Source: a virus
Direction: 5' to 3' (one strand)
IMG/VR virus record: IMGVR_UViG_3300042430_002694
Span: 124,001-188,000 of that record
Length of the DNA: 64,000 bases
Within the stretch, counting starts at the first letter, position 1; each line of letters begins with the position of its first letter. A program made the position numbers and the translations under genes. The notes under the pieces are model-generated. The model was not told the DNA's origin. It made no database searches and worked only from the letters and a program-made list of their open reading frames with translations. Of the stretch, positions 1,174-63,726 are shown piece by piece.

Positions 1174-3444
1174 ATGTCATACGTAGTTTCGTCCCAACAG
1201 TTTTTTGAATCGTTATCGACTTCAGGAAACTCTACTGATAAGCTGACCCAATACTTTAATCAAATACCTGCTGCCTTTTTTGAGGCTCTAGATAAAGTTG
1301 ATTTTAGTATTTTGGCAACGCCAGTTACAATCAAAAGAAAACATTCTGAATCAGAAGTTTTTGCTCACCAAGTATACTTATTTGAGAATTTTGAAGATAT
1401 TCAAGATATTATTCGAAAGGAAGATTTTTTAGCTCGAGCTGGATATGATACGATTGAATTAAGAATCAATGAATCTTATTTAGAAACAATTGAAACTCTT
1501 AACGAGGGTCTATTAGGGTCTATTGGAGACTTCTTAGCTAGCCTAGTAAGTGATCCGGATCCAGTAGAAATGGGTCTTAATATCTTACGTCTTGTGCTGG
1601 ATATTATTGGACTTGTGCCATTCACATGGGTAGGTTTTCCTATTGATATTGTTGCAAACGTTCTATCTGCTCTAATTTCATTGTATAAAGGGGAGTACGT
1701 CTCAATGGTATTAAGCCTTCTTTCAGCAATTGATATTACTCAAGCCTCTGATGTATTGAAGATAGTACTAAAACCAGCAATGCCGTTATTGGAAAAAATT
1801 CTACCTCTCATATTTAGATCTGGGAAGGACGTTGTTGCTCTAGAAAAAGGAGTAATTGCACTAAAAGATGGAATTATCCGAATCGGCGGAAAGAGTTTAT
1901 TAGACAATGTGATTAGCTTATTTAAAGGACTTGCTAAGTTTTTCCTAAACACCGCAGTCTCAGTAGTTAGAATGATCGCCGGGTTTATGGATACTGCGAT
2001 TAATCTTGCAACCTTTGGTATGGCTGGAAAATTTGGATTTAAAATTTCAAAATTAGTAGACTCTATTGTAGTGAACGTCTCGATGATTGGTAGAAATTTC
2101 GATACAGCTACTCAAATTCTTACAAAGCCTGGAGTAGGAAAAGAAATTGCTCAAAGTGCGGATGACTTGGCTAAAGCTGCTCGTAAAGAAGTTGCCCTAG
2201 GTGCTCAAGATCAAGCTCTTAAAGCTGGAAAAACTTCATCTGAAGTCGGAGCAGATATCAGTGCAGCACTTAAAGACTTTGATGCAACTCAAGCAGATAA
2301 GTACATTAGAGCTAGAGGAGGTTACTTAAGTGATCTAAAGCAGACAGTTACTTCAAATACGAAATTCATGGATTCAATTAGCCAATTATCTTCCAAGCAG
2401 AAAGACATTGCGATCGCTGCAAAAATGGAAAATGAATTAATTGGACAAGCTAAACTGTCAGTTGATAGGATAATGAAAGATCCTGAGGCAGTTAAACTGT
2501 TAGGTGCAGCCGGCTGGAGACCAGGTGGAGATCACTTAATTAGATTAGCTAGAGGAGGAAACCCTCAAGAAGTTAAGAAATTCTTTGAAGTGTTCTTAAC
2601 TAATCCAGCAATAGCTAAGAACTTATCTAAATCTGAAATTAGAGCATTTGCACCGTTTGTTGCTAAGCCGGAAGCATTCATCGAGGGAGTTGCTAAATTT
2701 AATGGTAGCGTTAAGACTCTTGAAATTCTCACAAAGAAAGGCGGCGCTATTGGAATGAGAGCCGTACCTTTCAAGCGAGTTCTTAACCTGGTAGCTAGAT
2801 TAGTTTGGCAAAAATACGGATCACTTGAATGTATTATCCAAGCCGGCGCAAATAAAGCAGGAGATGTAGCTCTTGGCGCAACTTCATCGTTAGTTAGAAC
2901 AGGAATATCTGCATTGGAAGAAGCAGAAGAAAGTTCAAACCCACAAAGGACTGTCGCAAAGGTAGATTGCGGATTACAGGCGGCGGCTGTTCAAGCAACA
3001 ACCGGCTCATTCGTTGCAGATTTTCCAGGAAGTACTGCAAATTTAGGAGGAACTGCTAACATGGGAGAAGATCCTGCACAAGCAGCTGAATTCCAAAAGA
3101 AGAGCACAGACTACTCAAAACAGGTACTAGCTTCACTAGGATTAGATACATCAATTGATGTTCAACATGCTCTTGACTATAATGAGCCTGTCGTCCAAGC
3201 CTATTTCGCAGATGTTTACGATCCTGAATCTGGAGTAATTAATGTAAATCTAGTCGATAAGTCTCGGTTAGACAGCACCATTCAAGAGATGGTTCGTATG
3301 GGAAAAATCCGACCGGAAGAGGCTGCTGGTATAAAAGCAGAAGCCTTGAAACTTATTCAATCGGGCGAAGAACCTGAAATTAAGTTACCTCCAGTAAACG
3401 AAGGGCTCTTCTCAGTTAAAGGCCTTTCATTCGGAAATAAATAA
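1174..3444 (+). CDS. Large late virion-type protein with hydrophobic core segment
   Basis: This 756-residue protein is expressed from a late-type promoter and heads a run of virion-type genes. Its N-terminus (SSQQFFESLSTSG) is a weak match to the head-targeting leader seen elsewhere. Residues about 130-185 form long hydrophobic helices around LDIIGLVPFTWVGFPIDIV, similar in character to the membrane-active pre-toxin segments of polymorphic toxins. The centre (about 310-480) is rich in Ala, Lys and Asp and looks helical. The C-terminus (VNEGLFSVKGLSFG) is Gly-rich. A membrane-interacting protein ejected with the DNA would fit, but no family is recognised. Confidence 0.7.
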   Translation: MSYVVSSQQFFESLSTSGNSTDKLTQYFNQIPAAFFEALDKVDFSILATPVTIKRKHSESEVFAHQVYLFENFEDIQDIIRKEDFLARAGYDTIELRINESYLETIETLNEGLLGSIGDFLASLVSDPDPVEMGLNILRLVLDIIGLVPFTWVGFPIDIVANVLSALISLYKGEYVSMVLSLLSAIDITQASDVLKIVLKPAMPLLEKILPLIFRSGKDVVALEKGVIALKDGIIRIGGKSLLDNVISLFKGLAKFFLNTAVSVVRMIAGFMDTAINLATFGMAGKFGFKISKLVDSIVVNVSMIGRNFDTATQILTKPGVGKEIAQSADDLAKAARKEVALGAQDQALKAGKTSSEVGADISAALKDFDATQADKYIRARGGYLSDLKQTVTSNTKFMDSISQLSSKQKDIAIAAKMENELIGQAKLSVDRIMKDPEAVKLLGAAGWRPGGDHLIRLARGGNPQEVKKFFEVFLTNPAIAKNLSKSEIRAFAPFVAKPEAFIEGVAKFNGSVKTLEILTKKGGAIGMRAVPFKRVLNLVARLVWQKYGSLECIIQAGANKAGDVALGATSSLVRTGISALEEAEESSNPQRTVAKVDCGLQAAAVQATTGSFVADFPGSTANLGGTANMGEDPAQAAEFQKKSTDYSKQVLASLGLDTSIDVQHALDYNEPVVQAYFADVYDPESGVINVNLVDKSRLDSTIQEMVRMGKIRPEEAAGIKAEALKLIQSGEEPEIKLPPVNEGLFSVKGLSFGNK
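3436..3443 (+). promoter_or_regulatory. Late promoter box AATAAATA
   Basis: The box overlaps the stop codon of the 756-residue gene and lies 22 bases before the next ATG. Sharing bases between a stop codon and a late promoter recurs in this genome. Confidence 0.55.
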
Positions 3445-3465
3445 TTAAAATAATAACAGAAACAA

Positions 3466-4470
3466 ATGACCTTTGTTAAAACATTTGAAAGCTTTAGAGC
3501 AACTTCGTTAACTGAAGCAGTCGATAAAGCAAACATAACTAAGATTTCACCAGAAGCCGGCGAACTTGCTAGATGGAAAGTTGTACTAAAGAGTGGATCT
3601 GCTGATTCAATCAGCAATGCAACACCAATTCAGTCGATTATCGACAGTTTAGTAATGAACGGCGATTTTAAAAATTGGTGGACTACTACTAAATTTGAAG
3701 GAACTCCTGCGAGCATGACCCTTGGTATTGTGTACAGTGGAGTTATGAACAAGACGAATTTAGTTGGAAAAGAGGTAGCTAAAGCTGAAATTGCCTTTGT
3801 TACGTATAGAAGACAACACACAGGCGAATCTGCTGGAGTTGACAAACCTGCAGCCGACGTATTCTATGATGTAACTAAAGCTGAACCAATCGCAACCGCG
3901 ACCGTTTCAGGTTCAAAGATTCCGTTAGCTGTATGGCATCAAGAAAAATTAATTGATATTAAGTTGGCGCAGCCAGTACCAGCAAGGGATAAATCGGGCA
4001 AGCTTATTGAAATCGATAAAGTTTATCCGTCTTACATGAAAAGCGAAGGCCAATCAGCTACTGATAAACCTACGACTACTGATACAACGACAGTTTCACC
4101 TACTACTTCTACACAAACGGTCGACTCGCCACAAGGCTCTCAATCGAACTCAACTACCTTCGTTGATCTTAAGAAAGCCCCAGGATTTAATCAAAAGGTT
4201 CAAGATCTACAGAAGAAGATCAAGACACTAGGCGGAGACGCAGCAACGGCTCTTGGTAAATTCGGAGCAGACGGTAAATATGGAAGCGGTACAGCTAATG
4301 CAATTGGAAAACTTGTAAATAACGGTACTCCAGTTGACTCAATTAATGCAGAGATTTCTGCTAAATTAGATGCAGCCTTTGTGAACTTAACTCAAGCTCA
4401 AATCGATGCAGCTAATAAGAAAGTAGAAAAGCCAGTCGACCGTAAAGTTCAAAGGCCTAGTCCATTTTAA
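3466..4470 (+). CDS. Head-targeted protein with C-terminal peptidoglycan-binding-like domain
   Basis: The 334-residue protein starts MTFVKTFESFRATSLTEA, a head-targeting leader with a T4-type cleavage site (LTE then A). The middle is unassigned and is followed by a Thr/Ser-rich linker near residues 205-230. Residues about 240-290 (VQDLQKKIKTLGG, then DGKYGSGTANAIGKLV) read as a PG_binding_1-like repeat: paired helices with a DGxYGxxT turn. It is probably packaged in the head and could contact the cell wall after ejection. The catalytic role, if any, is unknown. Confidence 0.75.
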   Translation: MTFVKTFESFRATSLTEAVDKANITKISPEAGELARWKVVLKSGSADSISNATPIQSIIDSLVMNGDFKNWWTTTKFEGTPASMTLGIVYSGVMNKTNLVGKEVAKAEIAFVTYRRQHTGESAGVDKPAADVFYDVTKAEPIATATVSGSKIPLAVWHQEKLIDIKLAQPVPARDKSGKLIEIDKVYPSYMKSEGQSATDKPTTTDTTTVSPTTSTQTVDSPQGSQSNSTTFVDLKKAPGFNQKVQDLQKKIKTLGGDAATALGKFGADGKYGSGTANAIGKLVNNGTPVDSINAEISAKLDAAFVNLTQAQIDAANKKVEKPVDRKVQRPSPF

Positions 4471-5500: not shown

Positions 5501-5971
5501 ATGAAGATTAAAGCATTCTCTGAATTCTTAGCTGAGTCATCAGCTGGCCACGATACGGCCGGTGTAGCAATATTATACAATCAAAAAATTTTACTAGTTC
5601 ATCCAACTAATGGAAGTTGGGTTAGACCAATCATGGGAATTCCAAAGGGCAAGGTCGAAGCTGGCGAAGACCTAATGAATGCTGCTCTACGAGAACTTAG
5701 CGAAGAGACAGGAATCTATCTTTCTCCAGATAAATTAGAATTGCCCGTGCAGACAGTTGAAGTTTACGATAAAGACGGCAAGTACAAGAATGCACTACAC
5801 TATTTCGTTTTCCGAATTGAGGATCTATCTGAGATTGAGCTGGAGTCATTAACTATTCCAAAGAGCCAACTTCAGGCAGAAGAGATTGACTGGGCCGGAT
5901 TCATCGATATCAAAGAGGCTTACTCAAAAGTTTCGCGAGCCCAACTTATAATTTTAGACAGACTTTCCTAA
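5501..5971 (+). CDS. Nudix hydrolase carrying a head-targeting leader
   Basis: A full Nudix box spans residues 50-72 (GKVEAGE, then RELSEETGI), matching Gx5Ex7REUxEExGU exactly. These enzymes hydrolyse nucleoside diphosphates linked to another group, such as ADP-ribose, NADH, Ap(n)A or RNA caps. The N-terminus, MKIKAFSEFLAES, is a head-targeting leader ending at a predicted protease site. The enzyme would therefore be packaged and delivered with the DNA rather than only made in the infected cell. The substrate cannot be read from the sequence. At 156 residues the length suits a single Nudix domain plus leader. Confidence 0.93.
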   Translation: MKIKAFSEFLAESSAGHDTAGVAILYNQKILLVHPTNGSWVRPIMGIPKGKVEAGEDLMNAALRELSEETGIYLSPDKLELPVQTVEVYDKDGKYKNALHYFVFRIEDLSEIELESLTIPKSQLQAEEIDWAGFIDIKEAYSKVSRAQLIILDRLS

Positions 5972-9526: not shown

Positions 9527-10117
9527 ATGATTAAGACCTTTAAAACTTTTACAAATGAAGCACTTAGTCCAGCTATTTTAACTAGTTCAATTAATGAGTG
9601 TACAGCTAATCAACTTAAGAGTATTTCTGAATTTAAAAGTACTTATAAAACTGAGTTAGATAAAGCAAATAAGATTGTTAACGTATACCAGGTAATTGAT
9701 AAATTTAGTACCTGGCTAGTTGGTAAAACTCCAGCAATGGTCCAAGCTGCTCTATTAAATTCGCCAGGAACTGCTGATAAACTGGTAATTGAGGCATATA
9801 CTTTCATTTATATGGAAATACAAAATCAATTAAAGTCAATTGGTACACTTAAAAAATCAGCACTTAAATTACTGGCTCCATCCGCTGCTGACTTTGATTC
9901 GCAAAAAACTGACTCAGACTTAGTGAATCAAATTATACAATTAGTGGAATCGTTATTTGATGTAGGCTTTATGATTGGTTACAAATTTGACAGTAAGTCA
10001 ATTGAGGCAAATAATGCTTCAAACTGGTCAGTTTCTTTTACCAAATCTCTTAATTCTAGGAAATCTTTAATATTCAAAAATATTAAACTATTAATTCGTA
10101 ACTTTTTATATAACTAA
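9527..10117 (+). CDS. Head-targeted protein, unknown function
   Basis: The 196-residue protein begins MIKTFKTFTNEALS, one of the cleanest copies of the leader (compare T4 MKTYQEFIAEA). The rest is helical with no recognised motif. The C-terminus is rich in Lys, Ser and Phe (SRKSLIFKNIKLLIRNFLYN), a basic amphipathic tail that might bind DNA or membrane. It is one of few head-targeted proteins placed inside the repair block, and no late box stands directly in front of it. Confidence 0.75.
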   Translation: MIKTFKTFTNEALSPAILTSSINECTANQLKSISEFKSTYKTELDKANKIVNVYQVIDKFSTWLVGKTPAMVQAALLNSPGTADKLVIEAYTFIYMEIQNQLKSIGTLKKSALKLLAPSAADFDSQKTDSDLVNQIIQLVESLFDVGFMIGYKFDSKSIEANNASNWSVSFTKSLNSRKSLIFKNIKLLIRNFLYN

Positions 10118-11383: not shown

Positions 11384-11644
11384 ATGACTGATCAAACTAC
11401 TGAAGACTGCGGATGCGGTTCAACGCCAGCAACTCCAAAACCTACGGTACTTAGCCGAATCATCGATAAAGTGTTTGTTAGTGAAGATCTAAAGAATCAC
11501 CGAATGTCCATTTGCAAACAGTGTCCTCATTTTGGAGAGACCCTATCCCAATGTGGAATATGCGGCTGTTTTCTTGAAGCAAAGACTCGACTGGTAGGAT
11601 TTCACTGCGCGCTAGATCAAATAGGCGAGCAACCTAAGTGGTAA
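11384..11644 (+). CDS. Small cysteine-rich (zinc-ribbon-like) protein
   Basis: The 86-residue protein contains CGCG near the start and, at residues about 45-63, a CKQCPH ... QCGICGCFL cluster followed by FHCAL. This spacing suits a zinc ribbon. It starts on the base after the uvsE stop, so it is co-transcribed. No catalytic domain is present; it may be a nucleic-acid or protein adaptor. Confidence 0.7.
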   Translation: MTDQTTEDCGCGSTPATPKPTVLSRIIDKVFVSEDLKNHRMSICKQCPHFGETLSQCGICGCFLEAKTRLVGFHCALDQIGEQPKW

Positions 11645-11702
11645 TAAATAATCTTGAAATTTACTTTTAATTTCCTAGAGTCAATCACTGACTCTTTGAA
11701 AA

Positions 11703-11960: not shown

Positions 11961-11972
11961 GAGTCCTTTTTT
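11948..11972. terminator. Bidirectional terminator
   Basis: Stem GGACTC/GAGTCC flanked by an A-run and a T-run. It serves the plus-strand membrane gene and the converging minus-strand gene. Confidence 0.85.
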
Positions 11973-54035: not shown

Positions 54036-54338
54036 ATGAAGCACATTAAACTATTTGAAGAGATTAACCGAGAAGACGAAGACGAATTATCTGCATTGGG
54101 CTTTGACACAGACGACCTTAAACTTAGACGATTTGCTCAACAAGTTTCGGACGAGATCCTTGACGAATACGATTATGCGGTAGACTCAGGCCGAATATCT
54201 GCTAGAGAATATTCCCCCGAAGAAATGTACAAGTACGTAAAGGAACTTTGTTCAGACAACGATATCACAGCAGACGAAGTAATTGCTGACTTTGAATGGC
54301 GCTCGATTACTTGGGAACTTGGGCTTGGAAACATATAA
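54036..54338 (+). CDS. Head-targeted acidic protein
   Basis: 100 residues starting MKHIKLFEEINREDEDE. The first eight residues match the leader; the cleavage site is less clear. The rest is acidic and helical. Its paralogue-like neighbour at 56391 shares the LGF/MGF...D start. Unknown. Confidence 0.65.
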   Translation: MKHIKLFEEINREDEDELSALGFDTDDLKLRRFAQQVSDEILDEYDYAVDSGRISAREYSPEEMYKYVKELCSDNDITADEVIADFEWRSITWELGLGNI

Positions 54339-54358
54339 ACCTTATAATTTAACAACTA

Positions 54359-54754
54359 ATGAAAATTGAAGTATCTACTGGCGAGATCTTAGATAAACTT
54401 TCTATCCTAGAAATTAAGCTTGAGCATATCTTAGACCCAGTTAAACGAAATAACGTGTTACAGGAATATGTAATACTGGTAGCAGCCGCCGAAGAAATAT
54501 ATGATGCAACTCTTGAAACAGAAGAGCTTAGGGTTCTTTATTTAGATTTACTAAATATTAATAAAACACTATGGAACATCGAAGATCAAATCAGAGAATG
54601 CGAACGAGATGAAAGTTTCGGGTCTGATTTTATTGAACTTGCAAGGTCTGTGTACTACACAAACGATGACAGAGCTGAGGTAAAGAAACAGATTAATGCG
54701 TTAACCGGTTCTAAATTAGTTGAAGAAAAATCTTACCAAGACTATCAGAACTAA
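54359..54754 (+). CDS. DUF6165 family protein
   Basis: 131 residues: EVSTGEILDKLSILEIKLEH, LNINKTLWNIEDQIRECER, FIELARSVYYTNDDRAEVKK, EEKSYQDY. This is the full DUF6165 pattern, a small family found near sugar-metabolism or phage genes. Function unknown. Confidence 0.85.
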   Translation: MKIEVSTGEILDKLSILEIKLEHILDPVKRNNVLQEYVILVAAAEEIYDATLETEELRVLYLDLLNINKTLWNIEDQIRECERDESFGSDFIELARSVYYTNDDRAEVKKQINALTGSKLVEEKSYQDYQN

Positions 54755-54811
54755 CAAGCGTTTGTGATCGATTAAATCAACAGCAACCTTTACGATTTCA
54801 TTCGTATTGCT

Positions 54812-54843
54812 AATGGGCCTCAGGAAACTGTAGCCCATTTTTT
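54812..54843 (+). terminator. Rho-independent terminator
   Basis: Stem AATGGGC/GCCCATT, then a T-run. The T-run leads straight into a TATAATAA promoter (54845-54852) for the RNA locus. Confidence 0.75.
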
Positions 54844-54852
54844 AGTATAATA

Positions 54853-55020
54853 ATCCTAACAGCAAGCCCTCTGCTTAGCGCTGAGTAAGGATCGAAGACG
54901 GGGATAGCCTCTTGACCGTTAGGTTAGAGTACTTCGGTACTCTTTAGTCAATGCGCACTACGCCCACCGAATCGTGTGTCGGCACAGTTTGTACGTTCTG
55001 GGGGTAATACAAAAACGTAC
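54853..55020 (+). ncRNA. Structured non-coding RNA upstream of tRNA-like RNA C
   Basis: No frame fits. Strong pairings are visible: TTGAC/GTCAA around GAGTAC-TTCG-GTACTC (a UUCG-capped hairpin, 54932-54948), CCGA/TCGG near 54977, and GTACGT/ACGTAC (54991 to 55020). Transcribed from TATAAT at about 54847 and contiguous with RNA C. Confidence 0.5.
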
Positions 55021-55026
55021 ATTTTT

Positions 55027-55128
55027 AGTCAGGAGTCCATTGGTTGGAAGCACCTCCCCAAGGTTGAGTAGCGGTAAGGCCGACTCTTTATGGCAAAGCG
55101 GTAACAGGTTCGAATCCTGTCCTGACTT
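55027..55128 (+). ncRNA. tRNA-like RNA C
   Basis: Acceptor AGTCAGG/CCTGACT and T-arm ACAGG-TTCGAAT-CCTGT are identical to RNAs A and B 4 kb away. A weak D-arm (TCC/GGA) and a short ACC-TCCCCAA-GGT hairpin follow; the loop lacks U33. GAGT/ACTC with CGG/CCG forms an extra hairpin before the T-arm. 102 nt, no CCA. Confidence 0.58.
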
Positions 55129-55148
55129 CTAAAATTAAAAAGTAGAGT

Positions 55149-55247
55149 ATGAATCGTAGACAGGCAATAGCAAAGCTTATTATTATTTTAGCTAGCGTTA
55201 CTATATCCGTATGGGCAATCGCTCAGCTCTTAATTGCTGTACAATAA
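55149..55247 (+). CDS. Single-helix membrane peptide
   Basis: 32 residues (LIIILASVTISVWAIAQLLI), one helix after a basic start. Its stop overlaps the RNase H ATG (TAATG). Confidence 0.5.
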   Translation: MNRRQAIAKLIIILASVTISVWAIAQLLIAVQ

Positions 55248-55678
55248 TGGAAACACTTCAAATATGGACGGACGGTAGTTCGTTAGGAAATCCTGGCCCA
55301 GGCGGTTGGGGCGTAGTCATGAAATTCCGAGGCAAGACCATGGAATTATCTGGATCTACACCGGCCACGACAAACAATCGAATGGAACTCACTGCCGTGG
55401 TTGAGGCTCTTGAAACAATTCCCAAGACAAAGTATCCAGTCAAGATCGAGTCAGACTCTAAATACGTGGTTGACTCAATCTCTAAGGGTTGGGTTGACAA
55501 TTGGGCAAGGAAGCCTGATTTCGCAGGTAAAAAGAACGAGGATCTTTGGAGAAGATACTTGATGGTTGCTCCTAACTTCGACTTGACTATCAGTTGGGTT
55601 AAGGGTCATAACGGCCATCCTGAAAACGAGCGTTGCGATTACTTAGCAACGACCGCAGCAAAAAATCAGAAACTTTAA
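55247..55678 (+). CDS. rnhA: Ribonuclease HI
   Basis: 143 residues from the ATG at 55247. Active-site Asp9 in WTDGSSLGNPGPGGWG, Glu47 in NRMELTAVVEAL, Asp70 in ESDSKYVV, and GHNGHPENERCDYLA near the end. It removes RNA from RNA-DNA hybrids, e.g. Okazaki primers. Full-length compared with E. coli RnhA (155). An upstream in-frame ATG at 55211 lies inside the membrane-peptide gene and is rejected. Confidence 0.95.
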   Translation: METLQIWTDGSSLGNPGPGGWGVVMKFRGKTMELSGSTPATTNNRMELTAVVEALETIPKTKYPVKIESDSKYVVDSISKGWVDNWARKPDFAGKKNEDLWRRYLMVAPNFDLTISWVKGHNGHPENERCDYLATTAAKNQKL

Positions 55679-55681
55679 ATT

Positions 55682-55792
55682 ATGTTAGATATGGAAAATT
55701 ACCCAAAATGGTTGAATAACCTAATCTATTTCTTTGCAGGAATAGGCTTCTCTCAAATCTTGATCAGAGTATTAGATTGGTACGTAGGATAA
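55682..55792 (+). CDS. Small membrane protein
   Basis: 36 residues (YPKWLNNLIYFFAGIGFSQI), one helix. Its stop codon lies inside the late promoter box of the next gene. Confidence 0.5.
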   Translation: MLDMENYPKWLNNLIYFFAGIGFSQILIRVLDWYVG

Positions 55793-55795
55793 ATA
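55788..55795 (+). promoter_or_regulatory. Late promoter box GATAAATA, leaderless
   Basis: Exactly 5 bases before the ATG at 55801; overlaps the upstream stop codon. Confidence 0.62.
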
Positions 55796-55800
55796 ATCCT

Positions 55801-56382
55801 ATGAAGCATATTAAACTTTTTGAGAACTGGTTTCAGGACGTAGAAGATAACGTTGATCGTAAGAGATTTGCGCCTGAGCTAGAACCTGAAGAGACTAAAC
55901 CTGCTGAGACTGAAGAAGACCCGGCTGAACCTGAAGAGGAGAAGCCCGATACTCAGGAAGAACCTAAAGCAGAAGAGCCTACTGAGCCAGAGACATATTC
56001 CGGTTGGTTAAAGACCCAAGCTGGCGTAAGCGAAGTTGTTGAAGCTGAAGAAGGTACAGACAATTCAAATGGTTGGGTTCGCTTGTCAAATGGAGTATCC
56101 ATTCAATGGGAAATCGATATGCGAGACTATCCGTTCCTTTCCGTAAGTTATATGCTTGATAAAAAAGTAATTCAGTTAGCTGATAATCCAGCCGGCGATC
56201 TTGCTCGACAATTCTACAAAGAGGGCCGTGAATACATTCCTAGAGAATGGGAGTCTGTTGTAATTAAAATAGGTGCAGGTGTTCCAGCCTTGATAAAGGA
56301 TGCAATTGCTTCAAACAAGCGACGAATGAAGGAGCAGGACGAGATCTTATCAGGTCAAATCGTTGCAGCTTTTAGCAAATAA
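55801..56382 (+). CDS. Head-targeted protein with acidic Pro/Glu linker
   Basis: 193 residues from the ATG at 55801 (the promoter rules out 55777). Leader MKHIKLFENWFQD. Residues about 25-70 are Pro/Glu/Thr-rich (EETKPAETEEDPAEPEEEKP); the C-terminal 120 residues form a compact domain (GWVRLSNGVSIQWEIDMRDY, VIKIGAGVPALIKDAIAS). Unknown. Confidence 0.72.
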   Translation: MKHIKLFENWFQDVEDNVDRKRFAPELEPEETKPAETEEDPAEPEEEKPDTQEEPKAEEPTEPETYSGWLKTQAGVSEVVEAEEGTDNSNGWVRLSNGVSIQWEIDMRDYPFLSVSYMLDKKVIQLADNPAGDLARQFYKEGREYIPREWESVVIKIGAGVPALIKDAIASNKRRMKEQDEILSGQIVAAFSK

Positions 56383-56385
56383 ATA
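56378..56385 (+). promoter_or_regulatory. Late promoter box AATAAATA, leaderless
   Basis: Exactly 5 bases before the ATG at 56391; overlaps the upstream stop codon. Confidence 0.62.
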
Positions 56386-56390
56386 ACTCT

Positions 56391-56705
56391 ATGAAGCAGC
56401 ACGTAAACCTATTCGAAGAATTCGATAACGACCAAGAAGAATTAAAATCCATGGGCTTCCGTAGCAAGCCAGACGGTTCACCTGACGAAAGATTCGACGA
56501 AGCTGTATCAGAGTGGTATCAAGATCCTGAAGTAACTGCAGCAATCGCTCTTCTTAAAAGAAAATCAACTGAAATCCTTGAAAAATGGATAGATTTTTCA
56601 GACGATGAGGATGAAACTGAATTTGACCAACGAGTATCATGGGTATACGACAATGGAGTTGATGACGTAGGCTGGTTTGAATTCGTAACAATGCTTGATA
56701 ATTAA
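56391..56705 (+). CDS. Head-targeted acidic protein
   Basis: 104 residues, leader-like MKQHVNLFEEFDNDQEE, then LKSMGFRSKPDGSPDERF. Similar in size, acidity and layout to the protein at 54036. Ends before a terminator. Unknown. Confidence 0.65.
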   Translation: MKQHVNLFEEFDNDQEELKSMGFRSKPDGSPDERFDEAVSEWYQDPEVTAAIALLKRKSTEILEKWIDFSDDEDETEFDQRVSWVYDNGVDDVGWFEFVTMLDN

Positions 56706-56728
56706 TTACTACTATATAAAATTAAAGC

Positions 56729-56752
56729 AAAGGCTTCCACATGGAAGCCTTT
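56729..56752 (+). terminator. Rho-independent terminator
   Basis: Stem AAAGGCTTCC/GGAAGCCTTT with loop ACAT. Confidence 0.8.
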
Positions 56753-56769
56753 GTTGGTATAGTAGAATA

Positions 56770-57294
56770 ATGGAATACGAACAACTCATTCAAGGCTGTA
56801 TTGAAAACAATAGAGAATACCAAAAGACCCTGTTCGATAAGTTTGCTGGTAAATTCATGACTATCGCAAAGAGGTACATGAAAGACCCTATGTTAGCCGA
56901 AGACGTATTGATGGAAGGATTTTATAAAATATACAAGAATCTTGGGAAATTCAAAGGAGAAGGTTCCTTTGAAGGGTGGATGAGACGAATCATCGTGAAT
57001 ACTGCGCTTACTAAACTCAAGCAGAACAAGCACGAGTTTAATGAGTGTAACTTAGTAACAGCGGAGGCAGTCAGTATAGATCCAACTTACTATGAAACAG
57101 CATCAGCCGAAGAGTTAATGTCTCTGATTAGCACTCTTCCGATTGGATATCGTACCGTTTTTAACATGTACGTAATTGACGGATTTTCCCATAGGGAAAT
57201 TGCAAAGGAACTTAACATACAAGAAGCCTCAAGTAGATCACAGCTATTTAAGGCAAAGGATTTTTTACAAAAACGAATAAACCCAAATACATGA
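56770..57294 (+). CDS. ECF-type sigma factor
   Basis: 174 residues from the ATG at 56770. Region 2 (YQKTLFDKFAGKFMTIAKRY, LAEDVLMEGFYKIYKNLGKF, SFEGWMRRIIVNTAL) and region 4 (GYRTVFNMYVIDGFSHREIA, KELNIQEASSRSQLFKAKDF) are typical of Bacteroidota ECF factors; the SHREIA...SRSQL signature is characteristic. It is the third sigma factor in the window and may recognise the late boxes or a host stress class. No anti-sigma gene is seen. Confidence 0.93.
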   Translation: MEYEQLIQGCIENNREYQKTLFDKFAGKFMTIAKRYMKDPMLAEDVLMEGFYKIYKNLGKFKGEGSFEGWMRRIIVNTALTKLKQNKHEFNECNLVTAEAVSIDPTYYETASAEELMSLISTLPIGYRTVFNMYVIDGFSHREIAKELNIQEASSRSQLFKAKDFLQKRINPNT

Positions 57295-57383
57295 AAAATT
57301 GGAAATCAAATGATTGGCTCGGATTCTTGCTTGTTGCAGGATGGTTCGTCTTTATCGCTTGGATTGCTATCAAGTTCGGATAG
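57291..57383 (+). CDS. Single-helix membrane peptide
   Basis: 30 residues (WLGFLLVAGWFVFIAWIAIK), overlapping the sigma-factor stop by ATGA. Could tether or modulate the sigma factor, but this is only suggested by coupling. Confidence 0.5.
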   Translation: MKNWKSNDWLGFLLVAGWFVFIAWIAIKFG

Positions 57384-57389
57384 CCCACG

Positions 57390-57397
57390 GATAAATA
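57390..57397 (+). promoter_or_regulatory. Late promoter box GATAAATA
   Basis: 20 bases upstream of the ATG at 57418; heads the long cargo-gene run. Confidence 0.55.
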
Positions 57398-57417
57398 ACC
57401 AAAAGAATTAATCTTTA

Positions 57418-57642
57418 ATGCAACATATTAAATTATTCGAACAATTTATAGCAGAATTCACAATGACTGAGCCGATTGTTAAACCTGCGCCAGTTAAAGA
57501 GCCTAGCACTCGACCTGCAACTAGACCCAAACCTAGTCCAATTCCTAGCAAACAACCGTTTAAACAACCTGAGCCAGCTAAGGCTCAAGCTGAGGATGTA
57601 ATTGCTCGCCTAAAAAGTCTAGAATCAAATGAAGAGCTTTAA
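57418..57642 (+). CDS. Small head-targeted proline-rich protein
   Basis: 74 residues: leader MQHIKLFEQFIAEF (cleavage IAE-F), then a Pro/Lys/Thr-rich basic stretch (APVKEPSTRPATRPKPSPIP) and a short helix. It resembles small T4 internal proteins in build. Overlaps the next gene by 14 bases. Confidence 0.72.
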   Translation: MQHIKLFEQFIAEFTMTEPIVKPAPVKEPSTRPATRPKPSPIPSKQPFKQPEPAKAQAEDVIARLKSLESNEEL

Positions 57643-58987
57643 AACATTCTTAAATGAAGCTGACATTCGTCAGAACCCAGCAATAACTCCAGAATACTTA
57701 GGATCTCTTGATAAACGAGCAGAACAGAGCGCTCGTGAAGTTGAACAGAGACACGGTCGAGATATGGGTAGCCTAATGAGAGCTGTCCGTGAAGTACAGA
57801 TGTTACAACGCGGTAAAGAACGCCAGCTTGAAGAGTTAACTACTTCAGTAATCCTAAGCCAGTACGGTTCAATTCTTGGAGAAACTGAGTTAGACATTAA
57901 GATTCCAAACGATCCTCGTGAAATGAAAGCGAAGATGAAGGAGACTGATGACGACGATCAAGAAGATCAGGACAAACCCAATTTCAAAGAGATTGAGGAT
58001 GAGGATACTAAAACAGCAATCAATAAACGTAAGATCCTAAACATGATCGCTCAAGGCGAAGCCATTAATTCAAAGAAGATGTTAATGGGCGATGAGAACA
58101 TGGAAGGTCTAACTCAATTATTTGGAGAGGCTAATGCCCGTAAAATGGTAGAGCTGCTAGTTACGATTACTGATATTTGTAATGCTAGAGACTGGAGAAT
58201 ACCTGAAGAGGTTGGAGCAAAAATGATTGAGCAAGGAGATTCCCTTGCCGGTATTTCAAAAATTGAATGGAAACCTAAATCTAAAAAGGATAACGATGAT
58301 GATCAAGGTCAAGAAGACGGAGAGTCTGAAGAAGAGACAGTTGACGAAACGACTGTTCCTACCTTAGTTATTAGAGGAATGGACCAAGCAATGTTATTCC
58401 ATGAATCTATTAAAGCAATTTGGGGACTGATTAATCAAGGAGGTCTTGCTAATCTAGACGATGAGACTATCCGAAAAGTGTTCATGAATACTGATACTGC
58501 CGCTGACGAAGTACAGGATCTTAAACGTGCTAAATTAACTGCAGCTGATCTTAGAGATTTTATCCAATCTTTCGAAGAAGTATTTGATATTGAAAACGGT
58601 AGAGAATACGTATGGGGTAAAATGATTGACTCAACAGTCGTATCTGATTCTGACTTCTTGGACCTAATGAAATTAATATTCACAGCAGCTCCGTTATACA
58701 GAACAGTTGGCGAACAGGAACCTCAATACACAGAGTCTGAAATCGCTGCTGCTAAAGAATCTTTTCCTAAAGCCAAAGCCATAGTAAATAACTTGATCCG
58801 TCTAATTAAACAGGAACTTGCTGATTGGGAAGACTCTCAATCTGATTCTAGCTACGATGAGCCTGACTTTACTATGCCAGCCAACGATAGAGAACTTGAT
58901 CAAGTTGATATTCAGAACATGATTGATGCAGCTCTAGATAATAGAGACTTCGCTGAAGTTGAAAGGTTAAGTAACTTACTTAAATAA
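57629..58987 (+). CDS. Head-targeted structural or scaffold-type protein
   Basis: 452 residues, leader MKSFKTFLNEA (almost the T4 sequence). Helical with acidic linkers (DDDDQEDQDK near 110; DNDDDQGQEDGESEEETVDE near 225). The middle, ILNMIAQGEAINSKKMLMGD ... ITDICNARDWRIPEE, reads like a core protein rather than an enzyme. Prohead core or internal scaffold is the best guess. Confidence 0.72.
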   Translation: MKSFKTFLNEADIRQNPAITPEYLGSLDKRAEQSAREVEQRHGRDMGSLMRAVREVQMLQRGKERQLEELTTSVILSQYGSILGETELDIKIPNDPREMKAKMKETDDDDQEDQDKPNFKEIEDEDTKTAINKRKILNMIAQGEAINSKKMLMGDENMEGLTQLFGEANARKMVELLVTITDICNARDWRIPEEVGAKMIEQGDSLAGISKIEWKPKSKKDNDDDQGQEDGESEEETVDETTVPTLVIRGMDQAMLFHESIKAIWGLINQGGLANLDDETIRKVFMNTDTAADEVQDLKRAKLTAADLRDFIQSFEEVFDIENGREYVWGKMIDSTVVSDSDFLDLMKLIFTAAPLYRTVGEQEPQYTESEIAAAKESFPKAKAIVNNLIRLIKQELADWEDSQSDSSYDEPDFTMPANDRELDQVDIQNMIDAALDNRDFAEVERLSNLLK

Positions 58988-58990
58988 GTA

Positions 58991-59836
58991 ATGAAGCATC
59001 TTAAGATATTTGAAAGTTGGGTCAACGAATCCCTTACTGCTGATCAAATCGCTGATAAAATTCAAATAGCCGTTGCTGGTTCAGGAACTGCAGAGGGTGA
59101 TTTAGTATCAGCAATCAAGTCTATTCCCGATGCTGCATCCATGGTTCGTGTAAACAAAGCACTTAAAACCGGGTTCGATACAAAGAGCTGGGATTACGCA
59201 AGTGTTGGCGATGCAATTACCGGAGAACTTGGATCCTTTGATCAAGATTACTTGGATCAAATCAACACTCACATAAAGAATATTAGAGCTGAGAAGTACT
59301 TAGGATCTTTCGTTGCTCCTCCTCCACCTGAAGATACAGTATTAAAGGTTATTGAGCCTAGGGTAATCCAACATGAAGGCTACAAACCAAAGAAGTACAT
59401 AGACTCTAAAGGAAATCCAACAGTCGGTGTAGGATTCAATCTAAACCGCTCTGACTCAACGTCAATGCTTAGGTCAGTTGGTGCAAATCCAATAAAGATA
59501 AAGTCAGGCCAGTCTGCATTAACCGATCAGCAGATTAAAGCTCTTCTGCATACTGATCTTCAAGCCGCAAAGTCTTTAGCTAAAACTTTAGTATCAGATA
59601 ATGGGAAAGTCAGCATAGCTAAAGTTTGGCCAAGCTTGCCACAATCAGTACAAGGAGTCTTAATTGAAATGGTATTTAATTTAGGAGCTAAAGGCCTATC
59701 TGAGTTTAACACGTTTCTACTTCACATAGCTTCAAAGAATTTCAAGGCTGCATCCAAAGAGATGTTAAATTCTTCATGGGCAAAACAGGTCGGTAATCGA
59801 GCAATAACTCTATCTAACATTGTTAAATCTGCATAA
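58991..59836 (+). CDS. Head-targeted T4-type lysozyme (GH24)
   Basis: 281 residues. Leader MKHLKIFESWVNES. Residues 20-100 (AVAGSGTAEGDLVSAIKSIP, DAITGELGSFDQDYLDQI) look like an annexin-type helical repeat. From 115 on is a GH24 lysozyme: Glu129, Asp138 and Thr144 have exactly the 9- and 6-residue spacing of T4 lysozyme Glu11-Asp20-Thr26 (HEGYKPKKYIDSKGNPTVGV), ending SSWAKQVGNRAITLSNIV. It cleaves peptidoglycan glycan strands. The leader suggests delivery from the head, not cytoplasmic lysis. Confidence 0.9.
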   Translation: MKHLKIFESWVNESLTADQIADKIQIAVAGSGTAEGDLVSAIKSIPDAASMVRVNKALKTGFDTKSWDYASVGDAITGELGSFDQDYLDQINTHIKNIRAEKYLGSFVAPPPPEDTVLKVIEPRVIQHEGYKPKKYIDSKGNPTVGVGFNLNRSDSTSMLRSVGANPIKIKSGQSALTDQQIKALLHTDLQAAKSLAKTLVSDNGKVSIAKVWPSLPQSVQGVLIEMVFNLGAKGLSEFNTFLLHIASKNFKAASKEMLNSSWAKQVGNRAITLSNIVKSA

Positions 59837-59857
59837 CTTTAGTATATTATTACTAAG

Positions 59858-60280
59858 ATGATAGCAGAAAACCGAAAAGCCCGACACGAATACACATTTT
59901 TAGAGACATGGACCGCTGGGATCTCCTTAACTGGATCAGAGGTCAAGTCAATTAAGGCGGGTAACCTTGACTTTACTGGATCCTGGTGCGAACTTCGGTC
60001 AGGTGAATGCTTCTGTCGAGAACTGTACATAAAAGAATCAACCTCAGCATACAGTCACCAAGGTAAACGAGAGAGGAAGCTACTCTTAACTAAAAAGGAA
60101 CTAAAGAAACTAAATAAACTGATGGACAGGGGCCTCACAATCGTTCCAGTAAAGATCTTCGTTAACTCGTCAGGTTTAATTAAGATTGCGATTGCTCTAG
60201 CCAAAGGAAAGAAGGATTGGGATAAGCGACATGTTATTAAAGAACGAGATCTCAGCCGAGCTTTAACCTCTGAATACTAG
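59858..60280 (+). CDS. smpB: SsrA-binding protein SmpB
   Basis: 140 residues following SmpB throughout: NRKARHEYTFLETWTAGISL, TGSEVKSIKAGNLDF, KRERKLLLTKKELKKL, GKKDWDKRHVIKERD. In bacteria it carries tmRNA to stalled ribosomes; its tail enters the mRNA channel. Here the tail after KERD is only 9 residues (E. coli has about 17), so ribosome entry may differ. It sits alone in a run of cargo genes behind TATATT at 59843. Four tRNA-like RNAs in the window are possible partners. Confidence 0.93.
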   Translation: MIAENRKARHEYTFLETWTAGISLTGSEVKSIKAGNLDFTGSWCELRSGECFCRELYIKESTSAYSHQGKRERKLLLTKKELKKLNKLMDRGLTIVPVKIFVNSSGLIKIAIALAKGKKDWDKRHVIKERDLSRALTSEY

Positions 60281-60288
60281 AATAAATA
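60281..60288 (+). promoter_or_regulatory. Late promoter box AATAAATA
   Basis: 21 bases upstream of the ATG at 60310, directly after the smpB stop. Confidence 0.5.
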
Positions 60289-60309
60289 ACCCTGAAATAA
60301 TTACATTAA

Positions 60310-61143
60310 ATGCCAAAGTACATTAAATTATTTGAAGCTTTCCAAAACGAAGCCCAAGCATATAAGTTCGATCCAACTAAATCAGTCTTAACTGGAGCTG
60401 CAGTATACAGTGCTGGAACATCATACGCTAAATTTACACTAGGTCGAATCTATATTGCGACTGAAGATAATGAATCCACCAAAAAAGCACCAGGAAACGT
60501 ATTAGTCCTTTTAACGGCTAAGAACAAGGACGTTGAGAAAAAACTTACTGATCTTGGTGGAGTGGCTGCGGCTCTTCAAGCTAGCGAAATTAACGAACCG
60601 CCTGCAGCTGGAGGTGGAGTCTACAAGTATCAAGCATCCTACATATTTAATTTAACTGATCCAGTTGCAGGAGATCAAATTCTTGGTAAAATTGCAGCTG
60701 CTATTAACACAGCACCGACTGGTTCAACTGGAACAAGCGGTACAGCTGGAACTGCTGGAAGCAAGGGAGATTACGCAGAAGGTTTCTTTGGAAAAGATAT
60801 TATGACAGCTTTTAGATCGCATGTCGCCGATGTTACTGGAGTTGCATATCAAGCAGCAACCAGTATTCCAGCGTATCAAGCATCTCTTCAAAACAAGGAA
60901 CTAAACAAGAGACTTAATTCGGATGCTGAATTTTTAAAGTTAATGAAAGAGGTTGAAGAGCAAGCTAAGTTAACAAACGTTGTTGACTTTACTACTGGAA
61001 AAACGAAGGATGGAAAGATCGATGCAAAATATCTTGAAATAAGAAAAAAGGTTGCAGCTAGAACTGAAGTAATTAAAAGTCAGTTAATGAATGCTGGTTC
61101 TACCGGTACATCAGGTACGGCTGGTACCGCAGGTAAAATCTAA
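60310..61143 (+). CDS. Head-targeted protein with duplicated Gly/Ser/Thr linker
   Basis: 277 residues. Leader MPKYIKLFEAFQNEA. A nearly identical linker, GSTGTSGTAGTAG, occurs at about 137-150 and again at the C-terminus, flanking a helical domain (VTGVAYQAATSIPAYQASLQ, FLKLMKEVEEQAKL). The front domain is beta-rich. Unknown. Confidence 0.7.
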   Translation: MPKYIKLFEAFQNEAQAYKFDPTKSVLTGAAVYSAGTSYAKFTLGRIYIATEDNESTKKAPGNVLVLLTAKNKDVEKKLTDLGGVAAALQASEINEPPAAGGGVYKYQASYIFNLTDPVAGDQILGKIAAAINTAPTGSTGTSGTAGTAGSKGDYAEGFFGKDIMTAFRSHVADVTGVAYQAATSIPAYQASLQNKELNKRLNSDAEFLKLMKEVEEQAKLTNVVDFTTGKTKDGKIDAKYLEIRKKVAARTEVIKSQLMNAGSTGTSGTAGTAGKI

Positions 61144-61153
61144 TTAATTGTTA

Positions 61154-62293
61154 ATGAAGCACTTACAACTGTTTGAAAACTGGAAAGACGAATTATCTAC
61201 AAGCCAATCTCAATTGGCTGAGCTCGATGCTCTGCGCGATTTCGCAATTATATCAGCAGACGATTACGCTCAACAAGGAAAGGCTCTTCTGAGCAAGATC
61301 GCTGGAATTAATCGTAAACTTCTTAAAGACGCTGATGCGACTCATCCTCGATGGTCAGCTGAGTGGTTAGCTGAAATTTCTGAGTACCCTTCTCTTACTT
61401 GGTTAACTGATTCGCTAGCTTCGCCTGAATTACAGTCACTATTGGCAAAAGGATTTTATCCATGTTCAAGTAATATTCAACTGGGAAACCGTACCTTAAT
61501 GCTATCTAAAAATCCTAACTATTCTCCATTAACTGATACAGCAATTGGATTCTTTTCTTCAATTAATGTAGTACGTCGAATCGTGCAGAAGCCTAATCCT
61601 AAGATGACTTACATGGATCAAAAGCTTAAAGAACTAGATGGAGGTCTTTCTCCAGTAGAGTTCATGAAGCAGGCAAGTCTATGGGTTCAGGAGAATTTAG
61701 TTCTAGAAGTAGACTACCTTCCAAGTAAAAGAGCTTATGCAAGTGATGTAAAGAAAGAGAATCAAGTCGAATTAATGTATTCAACTCTTGAGACTAAATT
61801 TGCAGAGCGCGGCGTTAATTTAGATAGAACACAAATTAAAGCTCTTCCAATTCGAGGTCTGTATCACGGGTCAGTTGAGATGGCAAAATTAATAAAGCTG
61901 CTACAAAAGCAAACCGATCAGTCAAAACCTCTTGAGCTGCCGTTAAACGAGTGGAGTAAATACACTCAGTCAGAAATAGATGCAATGTCTAATCCTAATT
62001 TAGTATGGACCGTTTCAGCAAACGGCCAGCTCCGATTTGGGTTAGGCTACCCTTACGACAACAATATCCCAACCGATATTAGCAGATTAAATATCAAGCT
62101 TGAGTCTACGACTATTCTTGATTACGTATCGGCTGCTAGTACTCAGGTTACGAATCAGTTATTAACTAAATTATCTCAAGCTGGACTGCAATTCATACAG
62201 AAGCTTGAGTGTCCAACTGAAGAGATTGACTTGGACATGTACCCAACTATTCAAGTTAATGAAATCAAAAATATCAGAGACCAACGTCGATGA
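61154..62293 (+). CDS. Head-targeted protein, unknown function
   Basis: 379 residues from the ATG at 61154 (the TTG at 61148 is less likely). Leader MKHLQLFENWKDE. The body is helical (LDALRDFAIISADDYAQQGK, WSAEWLAEISEYPSLTWLTD), with no catalytic motif. Overlaps the next gene by 4 bases (ATGA). Probably structural cargo. Confidence 0.7.
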   Translation: MKHLQLFENWKDELSTSQSQLAELDALRDFAIISADDYAQQGKALLSKIAGINRKLLKDADATHPRWSAEWLAEISEYPSLTWLTDSLASPELQSLLAKGFYPCSSNIQLGNRTLMLSKNPNYSPLTDTAIGFFSSINVVRRIVQKPNPKMTYMDQKLKELDGGLSPVEFMKQASLWVQENLVLEVDYLPSKRAYASDVKKENQVELMYSTLETKFAERGVNLDRTQIKALPIRGLYHGSVEMAKLIKLLQKQTDQSKPLELPLNEWSKYTQSEIDAMSNPNLVWTVSANGQLRFGLGYPYDNNIPTDISRLNIKLESTTILDYVSAASTQVTNQLLTKLSQAGLQFIQKLECPTEEIDLDMYPTIQVNEIKNIRDQRR

Positions 62294-63726
62294 AACACAT
62301 ACAGCTATACGAAAGCTGGATATTTGAGAATGTCCAAGCAGCAAAAGCATACATGCTTAAGAGAGCAGCACAGTCTCTAGGAAAAGAAGTAAGTGAACTT
62401 ACTCCTGAGGAACAGACTCGTGCTCTAAACAATCGTCAATACCTAGAAGTACTTGAATTACTTGGTCAAAAATACAATGGTTACTTAGGAACTTTCGTTA
62501 AATTCCATTTCGAACAGAGAATTTCAGTAGACCAATTGAAACAACTATTGGACCAAATGATTAAGTACCGTCAACTAGTTAGCACTCTTCCATATACACT
62601 AGATGCCTATTCAAACGGAAATCCTGAACCTGGATCTACAGTTTCAGGTTTTGAAGCGCTAATGGACCAGTTCAGAACATTTGAATTTAATTCCAAAGGT
62701 AAATGGATAATTGATGCTCTTCCTAGAGAACTTAGAGATCAGGCTCGTGCTCTTGATCCGGAAAAACAAAAGGAACTTATTCGTATTGGTTGGACAATCG
62801 CTGATCAGGGCGAAGCTATTCAAAAGAGAGTAATGTCCAAAGTTGCTCGCTACCGAACTATTCAAGATTTCATGAAGTATGCATTAGATATTTCAAGCTC
62901 AGATGAAGGTTCTCAAAAATTAGTAGCTCAAGCTGAAAGTCTTTCTCCTGAAATTCAGGTAATGTACGATGATAATAATTACGTGGTCTTTTCAGTTAGG
63001 ACTGAAGCTGCACAGAAAGCAATATTCCGTATGGCTAACTGGTGTCTAAACACTGGAAGTTGGGACTCTTATGTAAGTCGTGGAGTTCAATTAAATATCC
63101 TTAACTTTAATGTTCCGAATAGTGATCCAATGTTTGTAACTGGAACAACAGTCCTTGCCTCAGACTCAAGTGTTAAAGCGTCACACGATGCAAACGACCG
63201 CAATATAAAGAAAGATTCTGATCCAGCTACTCATTTACAAATGAACGGCTATCCGGAAGATCTTGTTAATCAAGTAATTGCACTACTTCCGTCTGAGATA
63301 GTGGTGAAGACTGTTCTTGCAAATATTATGTCTAAAGCAGGAGTTGATGCAAAGATCCAATCACTTGCGGTTGCAGGTCATGATCTAGAAACCCTAACTG
63401 ATCCAGTCGCTAGAGAACAGGTTGAAAGAGATTTGCTAATTATTATTGATAACGAATTTGAATCAGAGAATTTCTCAACTGAAGCAATGTTGGAAGGATT
63501 CAAGAAACATGGAATACTTTCAATGTTCGCTGCTAAGCTATACCATAAACTTCTAGTAGGTAAAATCTCTCAAGAAGATGTTGATGCAATCTTTGCTAAG
63601 ACAGAAAGAGGCTTTGAACTCTTAACCAGAAATGTAAACAACTGGCCTGATCCAAAGATTAAGGCAAAGATTACTGCCGTGCTTGCCGCGAAAGATCAAA
63701 TTCTGAATTTAGCAAGAACTGTCTAA
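62290..63726 (+). CDS. Head-targeted protein, unknown function
   Basis: 478 residues. Leader MKHIQLYESWIFEN. The body is helical with one beta-rich part near 215-280 (VMYDDNNYVVFSVRTEAAQK, FRMANWCLNTGSWDSYVSRG) that reads like a small compact domain. No enzyme motif recognised. It ends the run of head-targeted genes that starts at 57418. Confidence 0.7.
   Translation: MKHIQLYESWIFENVQAAKAYMLKRAAQSLGKEVSELTPEEQTRALNNRQYLEVLELLGQKYNGYLGTFVKFHFEQRISVDQLKQLLDQMIKYRQLVSTLPYTLDAYSNGNPEPGSTVSGFEALMDQFRTFEFNSKGKWIIDALPRELRDQARALDPEKQKELIRIGWTIADQGEAIQKRVMSKVARYRTIQDFMKYALDISSSDEGSQKLVAQAESLSPEIQVMYDDNNYVVFSVRTEAAQKAIFRMANWCLNTGSWDSYVSRGVQLNILNFNVPNSDPMFVTGTTVLASDSSVKASHDANDRNIKKDSDPATHLQMNGYPEDLVNQVIALLPSEIVVKTVLANIMSKAGVDAKIQSLAVAGHDLETLTDPVAREQVERDLLIIIDNEFESENFSTEAMLEGFKKHGILSMFAAKLYHKLLVGKISQEDVDAIFAKTERGFELLTRNVNNWPDPKIKAKITAVLAAKDQILNLARTV

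Follow-up and report, generated by a model that had tools for sequence, protein, structure and literature searches.

The DNA considered here, referred to as the window, is a 64,000-nucleotide stretch (positions 124001 to 188000) of the 271,160-bp virus record IMGVR_UViG_3300042430_002694 (labeled G000), and our subject is a short N-terminal leader that recurs on many of its predicted proteins and resembles the capsid-targeting sequence (CTS) of phage T4 internal proteins. The source is a large uncultured bacterial virus, a distant kin of T4. Family profile searches of the record found a T4-like head module comprising a Gp23 capsid protein (3e-41), a gp20 portal (4.5e-66), and an S77 (gp21-type) prohead protease (PF03420, 4.1e-9). 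The record is probably near complete, because an identical capsid protein lies on three further contigs of 270 to 271 kb. The named relatives by capsid protein, all below 60% identity, are Prevotella Lak phages, Tenacibaculum phages pT24 and PTm1, Flavobacterium phage MaF61, Chryseobacterium phage MA9V, and Sphingomonas phage PAU. A DNA search of named phages with the window's middle 24 kb returned no match, and a tRNA scan of the 64-kb window found none.

An earlier note on this DNA had placed such leaders on about 22 window proteins, or 24 with two weak ones. The leader is real and far above chance, but both the pattern and the count need correcting. Taken literally, the pattern given there matches 4 of 161 window open reading frames (ORFs) of at least 60 aa and misses MKSFKTFLNEA, which was given to illustrate it; 14 ORFs fit a relaxed form. 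The literal pattern was rejected as a search motif for being too narrow. When a leader profile is supplemented with a two-part form of the motif and with orthologue support, about 17 window genes appear well supported and five are weaker candidates, in most of which the cut site is poor or acidic, while the genes at 1174 and 4495 are unconvincing.

Leader Genes in the Window

Leaders were scored in bits with a profile built from 85 leaders of G000 and its relatives G001, G002, G004, and G005, with no T4 sequence inside and with one wrong start, MYGMYTLEN, removed from training; the window scores below come from a version trained on the four relatives only. The columns that carry most information are those for E (position 0), F/W/Y (-3), F/Y (-6), I/L/V (-2), and a hydrophobic residue (-9). 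The two-part (gapped) pattern joins [FY]xx[FW], through up to nine residues, to [LIVT]xE|[ASNGC]. Positions in this section are those of the window, with the strand in brackets, and a hyphen before the last letter of a leader marks the predicted cut.

The leftmost well-supported gene, 3466 to 4470 (+), encodes a 334-aa protein with a split leader, MTFVKTFESFRATSLTE-A (8.6 bits), for which neither an orthologue nor a Pfam match was found. A NUDIX hydrolase (5501 to 5971, +; PF00293, 8.9e-15) begins with MKIKAFSEFLAE-S (21.8 bits); among its orthologues, the leader is present in G005, lacks the E in G001 and G002, and is absent in G003. The 196-aa product of 9527 to 10117 (+) starts with MIKTFKTFTNE-A (18.9 bits) and has no Pfam or PHROG match. 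A VanY-type carboxypeptidase with an endolysin-like domain (18695 to 19948, -; PF02557, 1.3e-12; phrog_181 endolysin, 2.6e-16) carries MENKILNFKQFLTE-A from an ORF-internal ATG (24.9 bits), and the leaders of its orthologues read MIKGFDQFAGKLNE-A. The split leader of a peptidoglycan-binding protein (19938 to 20303, -; PF01471, 1.2e-6), MIHNFNQFTEKTNE-G, scores 2.8 bits by the ungapped profile and has orthologous counterparts reading MFKKFDEFNETLNE-G.

Further along, a 656-aa protein (21097 to 23067, -) opens with MINSLRDIVNE-S (6.1 bits; MINSFIQMVNE-S in its G001 and G002 orthologues). The gene at 25450 to 26247 (-) encodes a probable zinc metallopeptidase with an HExxH motif (PHROG metallo-protease, 2.6e-4; Pfam M78, 0.0022, below the cut-off), and its leader, MKLLSTYSDWLNE-N (18.3 bits), is kept in G001 and G002. 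So is that of a 153-aa protein at 26299 to 26760 (+), MIHKYQQWLDE-S (15.2 bits), which is followed by a 62-aa ORF (26781 to 26969, +) with MKNLVNSFTKFVNE-S (18.7 bits). Three more genes lie on the minus strand: 31076 to 32695 (539 aa; MKHSIIKGYSSWLNE-N, 23.2 bits; MKHTIIKDYRSWLFE-S in the G002 orthologue), 33356 to 34609 (417 aa; MNLIKGYSQWLNE-N, 27.0 bits), and 35424 to 35855, which encodes a 143-aa protein with a split leader, MQNYITDFNGFALTE-S, has the promoter sequence TATAAATA just upstream, and has no orthologue that we could find.

Toward the right end, on the plus strand, a 74-aa ORF (57418 to 57642) carries MQHIKLFEQFIAE-F (19.6 bits), and a 452-aa protein (57629 to 58987) carries MKSFKTFLNE-A (21.8 bits), with MKSFKQFLNE-A in a G002 orthologue of 68% identity. 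A phage lysozyme-domain protein (58991 to 59836; PF00959, 1.1e-9), which also matches phrog_2083, 'internal virion lysozyme motif' (2.1e-9), begins with MKHLKIFESWVNE-S (19.4 bits). The 277-aa product of 60310 to 61143 (MPKYIKLFEAFQNE-A, 12.7 bits) and the 478-aa product of 62290 to 63726 (MKHIQLYESWIFE-N, 15.5 bits) each have a best match that is without the leader, in G004 (29% identity) and in G002 (39% identity), respectively.

The weaker candidates include a 158-aa protein at 14272 to 14748 (-) whose leader, MKRYVALFESFEES, did not appear in the list of genes scoring 0 bits or more and which has the promoter sequence ATAAATAA upstream. The other four are on the plus strand: a 100-aa protein (54036 to 54338; MKHIKLFEEINRE, 2.1 bits), the product of 55801 to 56382, a 104-aa protein (56391 to 56705; MKQHVNLFEEFDND, 4.5 bits; MKNLKAFTQFINE-D in a G004 orthologue), and a 379-aa protein (61154 to 62293; MKHLQLFENWKDE-L, 1.6 bits). 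The leader at 55801, MKHIKLFENWFQD, has at its cut position an acidic residue that is not E and was read from the sequence; G000 was scanned as 20-kb tiles without overlap, so genes spanning a tile edge, as this one does, are unscored.

Statistical Support for the Leader

Among 2,900 first-start positions (residues 0 to 9), the strict core, [FY]xx[FWY][LVIFT]xE, is found 18 times (6.2 per 1,000), versus 0.49 per 1,000 beyond residue 80. Counted by gene, with gene lists that are greedy sets of nonoverlapping ORFs and not curated genes, it is found in 18 of 288 in G000, while over 1,000 rounds of N-terminus shuffling the count averaged 0.52 and never exceeded 4. The excess is similar in G001 (15/260), G002 (19/281), G004 (11/198), and G005 (9/235); the more distant G003 has the strict motif in just 1 of 203 genes, no excess. 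The two-part pattern is likewise enriched in G000 (20/288; shuffled mean, 0.62).

The profile leads to the same view of the whole record. With each genome scored by a profile that left it out, 24 of 311 genes reach 10 bits in G000, 17 of 282 in G001, 26 of 309 in G002, 13 of 214 in G004, and 11 of 248 in G005, whereas decoys do so at rates of 0 to 0.32%; among internal-Met decoys of G000, 1 of 859 reached this score. Of the 24 in G000, 13 fall inside the window. The leader E stands at residue 10 to 16 in the 24 strongest genes of G000. Leader genes had been suggested to fill a large share of the 64 kb; the 13 strong window genes sum to about 11.3 kb. The full profile finds genes of at least 10 bits in G006 (5/129), G007 (6/154), G008 (9/154), LR756500 (12/382, from 293 kb of its 462 kb), MA9V-2 (7/264), and G003 (1/224), and none among 289 PAU and 279 pT24 genes. 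A test of cut sites that is free of dialect gives a clear signal in G000, G001, and G002, with ratios of 2.4 to 2.8.

Late-Type Promoters

Most leader genes had been described as sitting behind T4-like late promoters, and this is borne out for a late-type sequence but not for the exact one. Among 36 leader genes chosen by hand, 20 have ATAAATAA within 80 nucleotides upstream, versus 35 of 255 others (P = 1.1e-7), and 11 of the 24 strongest leader genes have it. Genome-wide there are 78 occurrences versus 40 for a reversed control. Nonleader genes with ATAAATAA include the protease-capsid operon (record position 10746) and a gene with a tail-tube match (record position 16312). Exact TATAAATA is rare (within 60 nucleotides of 3 of the 36 leader genes versus 3 of 251 others) and was rejected as the leader-gene promoter for being too narrow.

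Comparison with T4 Internal Proteins

Scored with the T4-free profile, T4's own ipII (20.1 bits) and ipIII (18.7 bits) rank first and second of 252 genes; the third-best gene scores 6.3 bits, and ipI is seventh at 4.7 bits. The two-part pattern picks 4 of 221 T4 genes, namely, ipI, ipII, ipIII, and one other. It predicts that the 95-residue ipI product is cut after residue 19, leaving 76 residues, and 76 residues is the mature IPI length given in a passage of PMC3012670. Mutants of T4 IPIII, as summarized in an excerpt of PMC9026906, indicate that residues 4 and 7 target the protein while residues 8 and 10 govern processing, and the same excerpt has gp21 cutting after L/I-x-E. In the T4 leader MKTYQEFIAEA, these residues are Y, F, I, and E, the columns conserved in the G000 clade. 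Like the T4 system of IPI, IPII, and IPIII, then, the G000 genome combines a leader of 10 to 20 residues bearing aromatic targeting positions and a hydrophobic-x-E cut site with otherwise unrelated cargo and a gp21-type protease, and the likeness that the earlier note had proposed is upheld.

The motif is nevertheless short, and it stands on proteins of mixed predicted function, including a probable nucleotidase. It could be a docking peptide for another target, such as a replication compartment, a membrane, or the tail, its likeness to T4 being a convergence of short amphipathic helices, and the top profile match in phage Aeh1, annotated uvsW.1, would fit such a target. We consider this improbable: four columns and their distance from the start equal those of T4, all three T4 internal proteins are recovered, late-type promoters and a gp21-type protease occur in the same genome, and leader proteins of PAU are annotated as internal capsid proteins.

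Those PAU proteins, gp142 and gp154, belong to about seven (NC_019521) that carry PAU's own leader dialect, MKTLSKLYESKLNE, and pT24 seems to use a separate one, M..I..Y[LIV]TE. A looser pattern finds 12 proteins in PAU versus 2.4 expected and 4 in pT24 versus 2.1 expected. The clade-trained profile may undercount such dialects, and this qualifies its comparison of the 24 G000 genes of at least 10 bits with those of T4 (2/252), KVP40 (3/374), Aeh1 (1/327), and P-SSM2 (2/309). In P-SSM2 (NC_006883), an annotated cytidyltransferase (158143 to 159417) starts with MKSFSQFLTET and scores 21.7 bits. In KVP40 (NC_005083, 37733 to 39834), two hypothetical proteins that bear a leader are encoded a short way behind gp24 and gp55.

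Conservation and Exchange of Leaders

Leaders are retained in 30 of 39 orthologue pairs involving 22 strong leader genes, versus 15 of 618 for other genes, where pairs cover half the query and part of the profile's training came from these genomes. The similarity of the leaders to one another could reflect shared ancestry, with the leader proteins forming one large paralogous family with a conserved N terminus, and the neighboring window genes from 54036 to 62290 do share MKH[IL]-type starts. However, among the 40 of 41 hand-picked leader proteins listed in a mutual comparison, none matched another above 45 bits at an E value of 1e-5 or lower, and differing domains stand behind the leader. Moreover, in G001 and G002, the domain of the protein at record position 234458 stands behind the leader of the 233874 family, which indicates swapping rather than descent of one family. 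Shared ancestry is therefore a very remote prospect.

A Protease-Scaffold Fusion with Leader-Like Repeats

The gp21-like protease that the earlier note proposed to look for elsewhere in the genome is present, outside the window, at record positions 10746 to 12767. It forms a single 673-aa polypeptide with scaffold-like repeats, whereas protease and scaffold are separate in T4 (genes 21 and 22) and are annotated as separate genes in PAU. Residues 50 to 163 align with T4 gp21 (BLASTP, 1e-8) and keep the His of GELxHP and the Ser of VSSR, which we take to be the catalytic residues of gp21-type proteases. The T4 protease structure 5jbl, whose chain has Ala at both places, matches weakly (E value of 0.013). 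The fusion is conserved, as evidenced by a protease ORF of at least 550 aa at 62 capsid loci, including that of G003.

Downstream of the protease half, tandem 14-residue units can be read by eye (e.g., YSEYLGEKVNQNIN). The strict leader core is matched by eight of them, a number that no other G000 protein reaches (8 of 29 internal matches), and the counts in relatives are similar: eight in G005 and G007; seven in G001, G002, and G008; and five in G004 and G006. Among the 62 loci, 60 have four to nine such repeats and two have none. One of these is G003, the sole scanned relative without the scaffold core, which is also nearly without leaders; the other, L236, is the one further record that came up when the G003 capsid was used to look for more leaderless relatives, and it was viewed at its capsid locus.

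A tentative idea is that the leader imitates a single unit, with the core Y-x-x-Y-[LVI]-x-E, of the phage's scaffold array. Cargo would then gain entry to the head in the guise of such a unit, and a single protease would cleave the leaders as well as the array, so that the core comes apart and dozens of cargo proteins are freed together. A close coupling of repeats and leaders is countered by LR756500 (12 leaders and just two strict repeats), by MA9V-2 (seven leaders and no such array), and by the T4 scaffold, which has zero strict-core repeats. The repeats also score moderately on the full profile (7.1, 5.9, and 4.3 bits), and none of the seven internal positions of at least 8 bits is in the scaffold. 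Because of these counterexamples and moderate scores, we offer scaffold mimicry as a hypothesis for this clade. In the excerpts of the T4 literature consulted, we did not meet scaffold-repeat likeness as the basis of CTS recognition; the likeness suggests a possible route by which a capsid-targeting leader gets recognized.

Predicted Cargo

That the leader proteins include several enzymes is supported by family matches of unequal strength. The NUDIX (5501), VanY (18695), peptidoglycan-binding (19938), and phage lysozyme (58991) matches exceed their curated Pfam cut-offs, and the leader protein at record position 32875 matches the PHROG 5'-3' deoxyribonucleotidase (1.8e-23). Across eight genomes, 12 of the 125 proteins whose leader scores at least 6 bits have an HExxH motif, versus 18 of 1,543 others (P = 5e-7), an excess that rests essentially on two families, those of record position 36620 and window position 25450. 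The 36620 family has a recognizable leader-bearing member in each of the eight genomes, of which five were aligned. Its structural model has a mean pLDDT of 74.3, with the leader (residues 1 to 12) below 50. The model's best viral match is a 59%-identical protein; a PDB search gave no match at an E value of 0.001 or lower, the best second-look hit (Z score, 4.1) being an oligopeptidase, and the HExxH reading therefore rests on sequence. For the protein at record position 189625, a nucleotidyltransferase domain is weakly suggested (0.003, below the cut-off); with its poor model (pLDDT, 51.5), CD-NTases and aminoglycoside nucleotidyltransferases top the PDB list, none at an E value of 0.001 or lower. 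Many leader proteins have no match to anything known.

Leader proteins may also be directed to the head as assembly or core proteins, comparable to gp67, gp68, or IPIII, with little or nothing delivered to the host. A leader gene at record position 14572 sits directly after the capsid gene. Two other proteins hold the core internally, as would be expected of core proteins cut into pieces: that of record positions 16918 to 17571 has the leader core KIKRFEQFVNENE (30.9 bits) ahead of an acidic tail, and that of 246301 to 247269 has two internal strict-core matches. Both are perhaps core proteins cut mid-chain. Nor are the leader proteins clearly more variable than the rest, as an arms-race payload would be. 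Against this stand the cargo matches to enzymes (NUDIX, lysozyme, VanY, nucleotidase, and HExxH proteins), which make a pure assembly role for all leader proteins unlikely, and T4 internal proteins, which are injected into the host according to passages of PMC3012670 and PMC12373910. We regard a predominantly structural role as a minority possibility, though a more credible one than docking outside the head.

Interpretation

We favor the view that the leader is a T4-type CTS and that the proteins bearing it are packaged and cleaved, with a probability of about 0.82. Late in infection, the aromatic half, [FY]xx[FW], would dock a protein on the core of the prohead, and it is probably the scaffold-like part of the 673-aa fusion that makes up this core. 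The S77 protease half would then cut after the Glu of [LIVFT]-x-E, as with the capsid propeptide and the scaffold, and leave mature cargo loose inside the head. On infection, the cargo would exit together with the DNA; we lean toward such injection with less confidence, by analogy with T4. Since the address tag is on at least two dozen unrelated proteins, the head probably carries an unusually large protein cargo, and the further step to a broad protein-delivery payload, which the earlier note took, is plausible on the same analogy.

Several observations weigh against this view of the leader as a head-targeting signal. The dialect-free cut-site test is near background in G006, G008, MA9V-2, and KVP40 (1.1 to 1.3). 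The Aeh1 protein uvsW.1, picked by the profile at 17.6 bits, is to our knowledge not known as a head protein, and the 30.9-bit match at 16918 lies inside a protein. The cut letters of capsid propeptide and leader are exactly identical in three of nine genomes (PAU, MA9V-2, and LR756500) and differ in G000, G001, G002, G004, pT24, and T4, which makes them a weak hint only of a shared protease. Leader proteins resembling nucleotide-metabolism enzymes, such as that at 32875, could simply be cytoplasmic. Cargo that is basic or fast-evolving, as in T4, was not seen: the median pI is 5.16 for leader proteins and 5.60 for other genes (P = 0.21), and the leader proteins are not clearly more variable. 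Finally, no proteomic study of virions was found in the literature, either for this phage or for a close relative.

Other Features of the Record

Four neighboring genes of the window (28799 to 29452, -; 29458 to 30420, -; 30484 to 31029; and 32781 to 33284) are without the leader; by eye, their products resemble a secreted nuclease, a patatin-like lipase, and two secreted CAP-like proteins. An ORF at window positions 49735 to 50373 (-) looks by eye like a helix-turn-helix and serine-recombinase-like protein, unusual in such a setting. At record positions 80333 to 91525, a 3,730-aa ORF consists largely of collagen-type repeats (Pfam Collagen), and the large-ORF region around it probably holds tail or fibre genes.

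Relation to Known Systems and Significance

Internal proteins are already known as a kind, since related T-even phages encode at least 10 reported ones, which an excerpt of PMC12373910 describes as recognized by a signal. The G000 set is alike in its shared N-terminal signal. The T-even sets are described in that excerpt as anti-restriction inhibitors; here, the lineage is a distant jumbo one whose named relatives infect Tenacibaculum, Flavobacterium, Chryseobacterium, and Prevotella, and, unlike T4 internal proteins, its cargo is not basic and includes predicted enzymes. As outlined in a portion of PMC5694885, phages of the phiKZ and SPN3US type are giants in which a prohead protease acts on many head proteins, and a comparable set is predicted here. 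The propeptides there are mostly longer than 100 residues, while G000 combines leaders of 10 to 20 residues with a T4-type capsid, portal, and protease. Among the matches listed by our literature searches, capsid-targeting sequences were treated for T4, P1, P22, SPN3US, and T4-based vectors, with none on Bacteroidota phages, and those listed for Bacteroidota jumbo phages held no leader work of this kind. As far as these searches reach, the scale, the lineage, and the cargo appear new.

If the view taken here is correct, the leader makes it possible to list, from sequence only, which proteins of uncultured jumbo phages related to T4 are candidate head cargo. The candidates would include enzymes such as a NUDIX hydrolase, a nucleotidase, a lysozyme, a carboxypeptidase, and probable metallopeptidases, and what large phages inject besides DNA would become a directly testable question.

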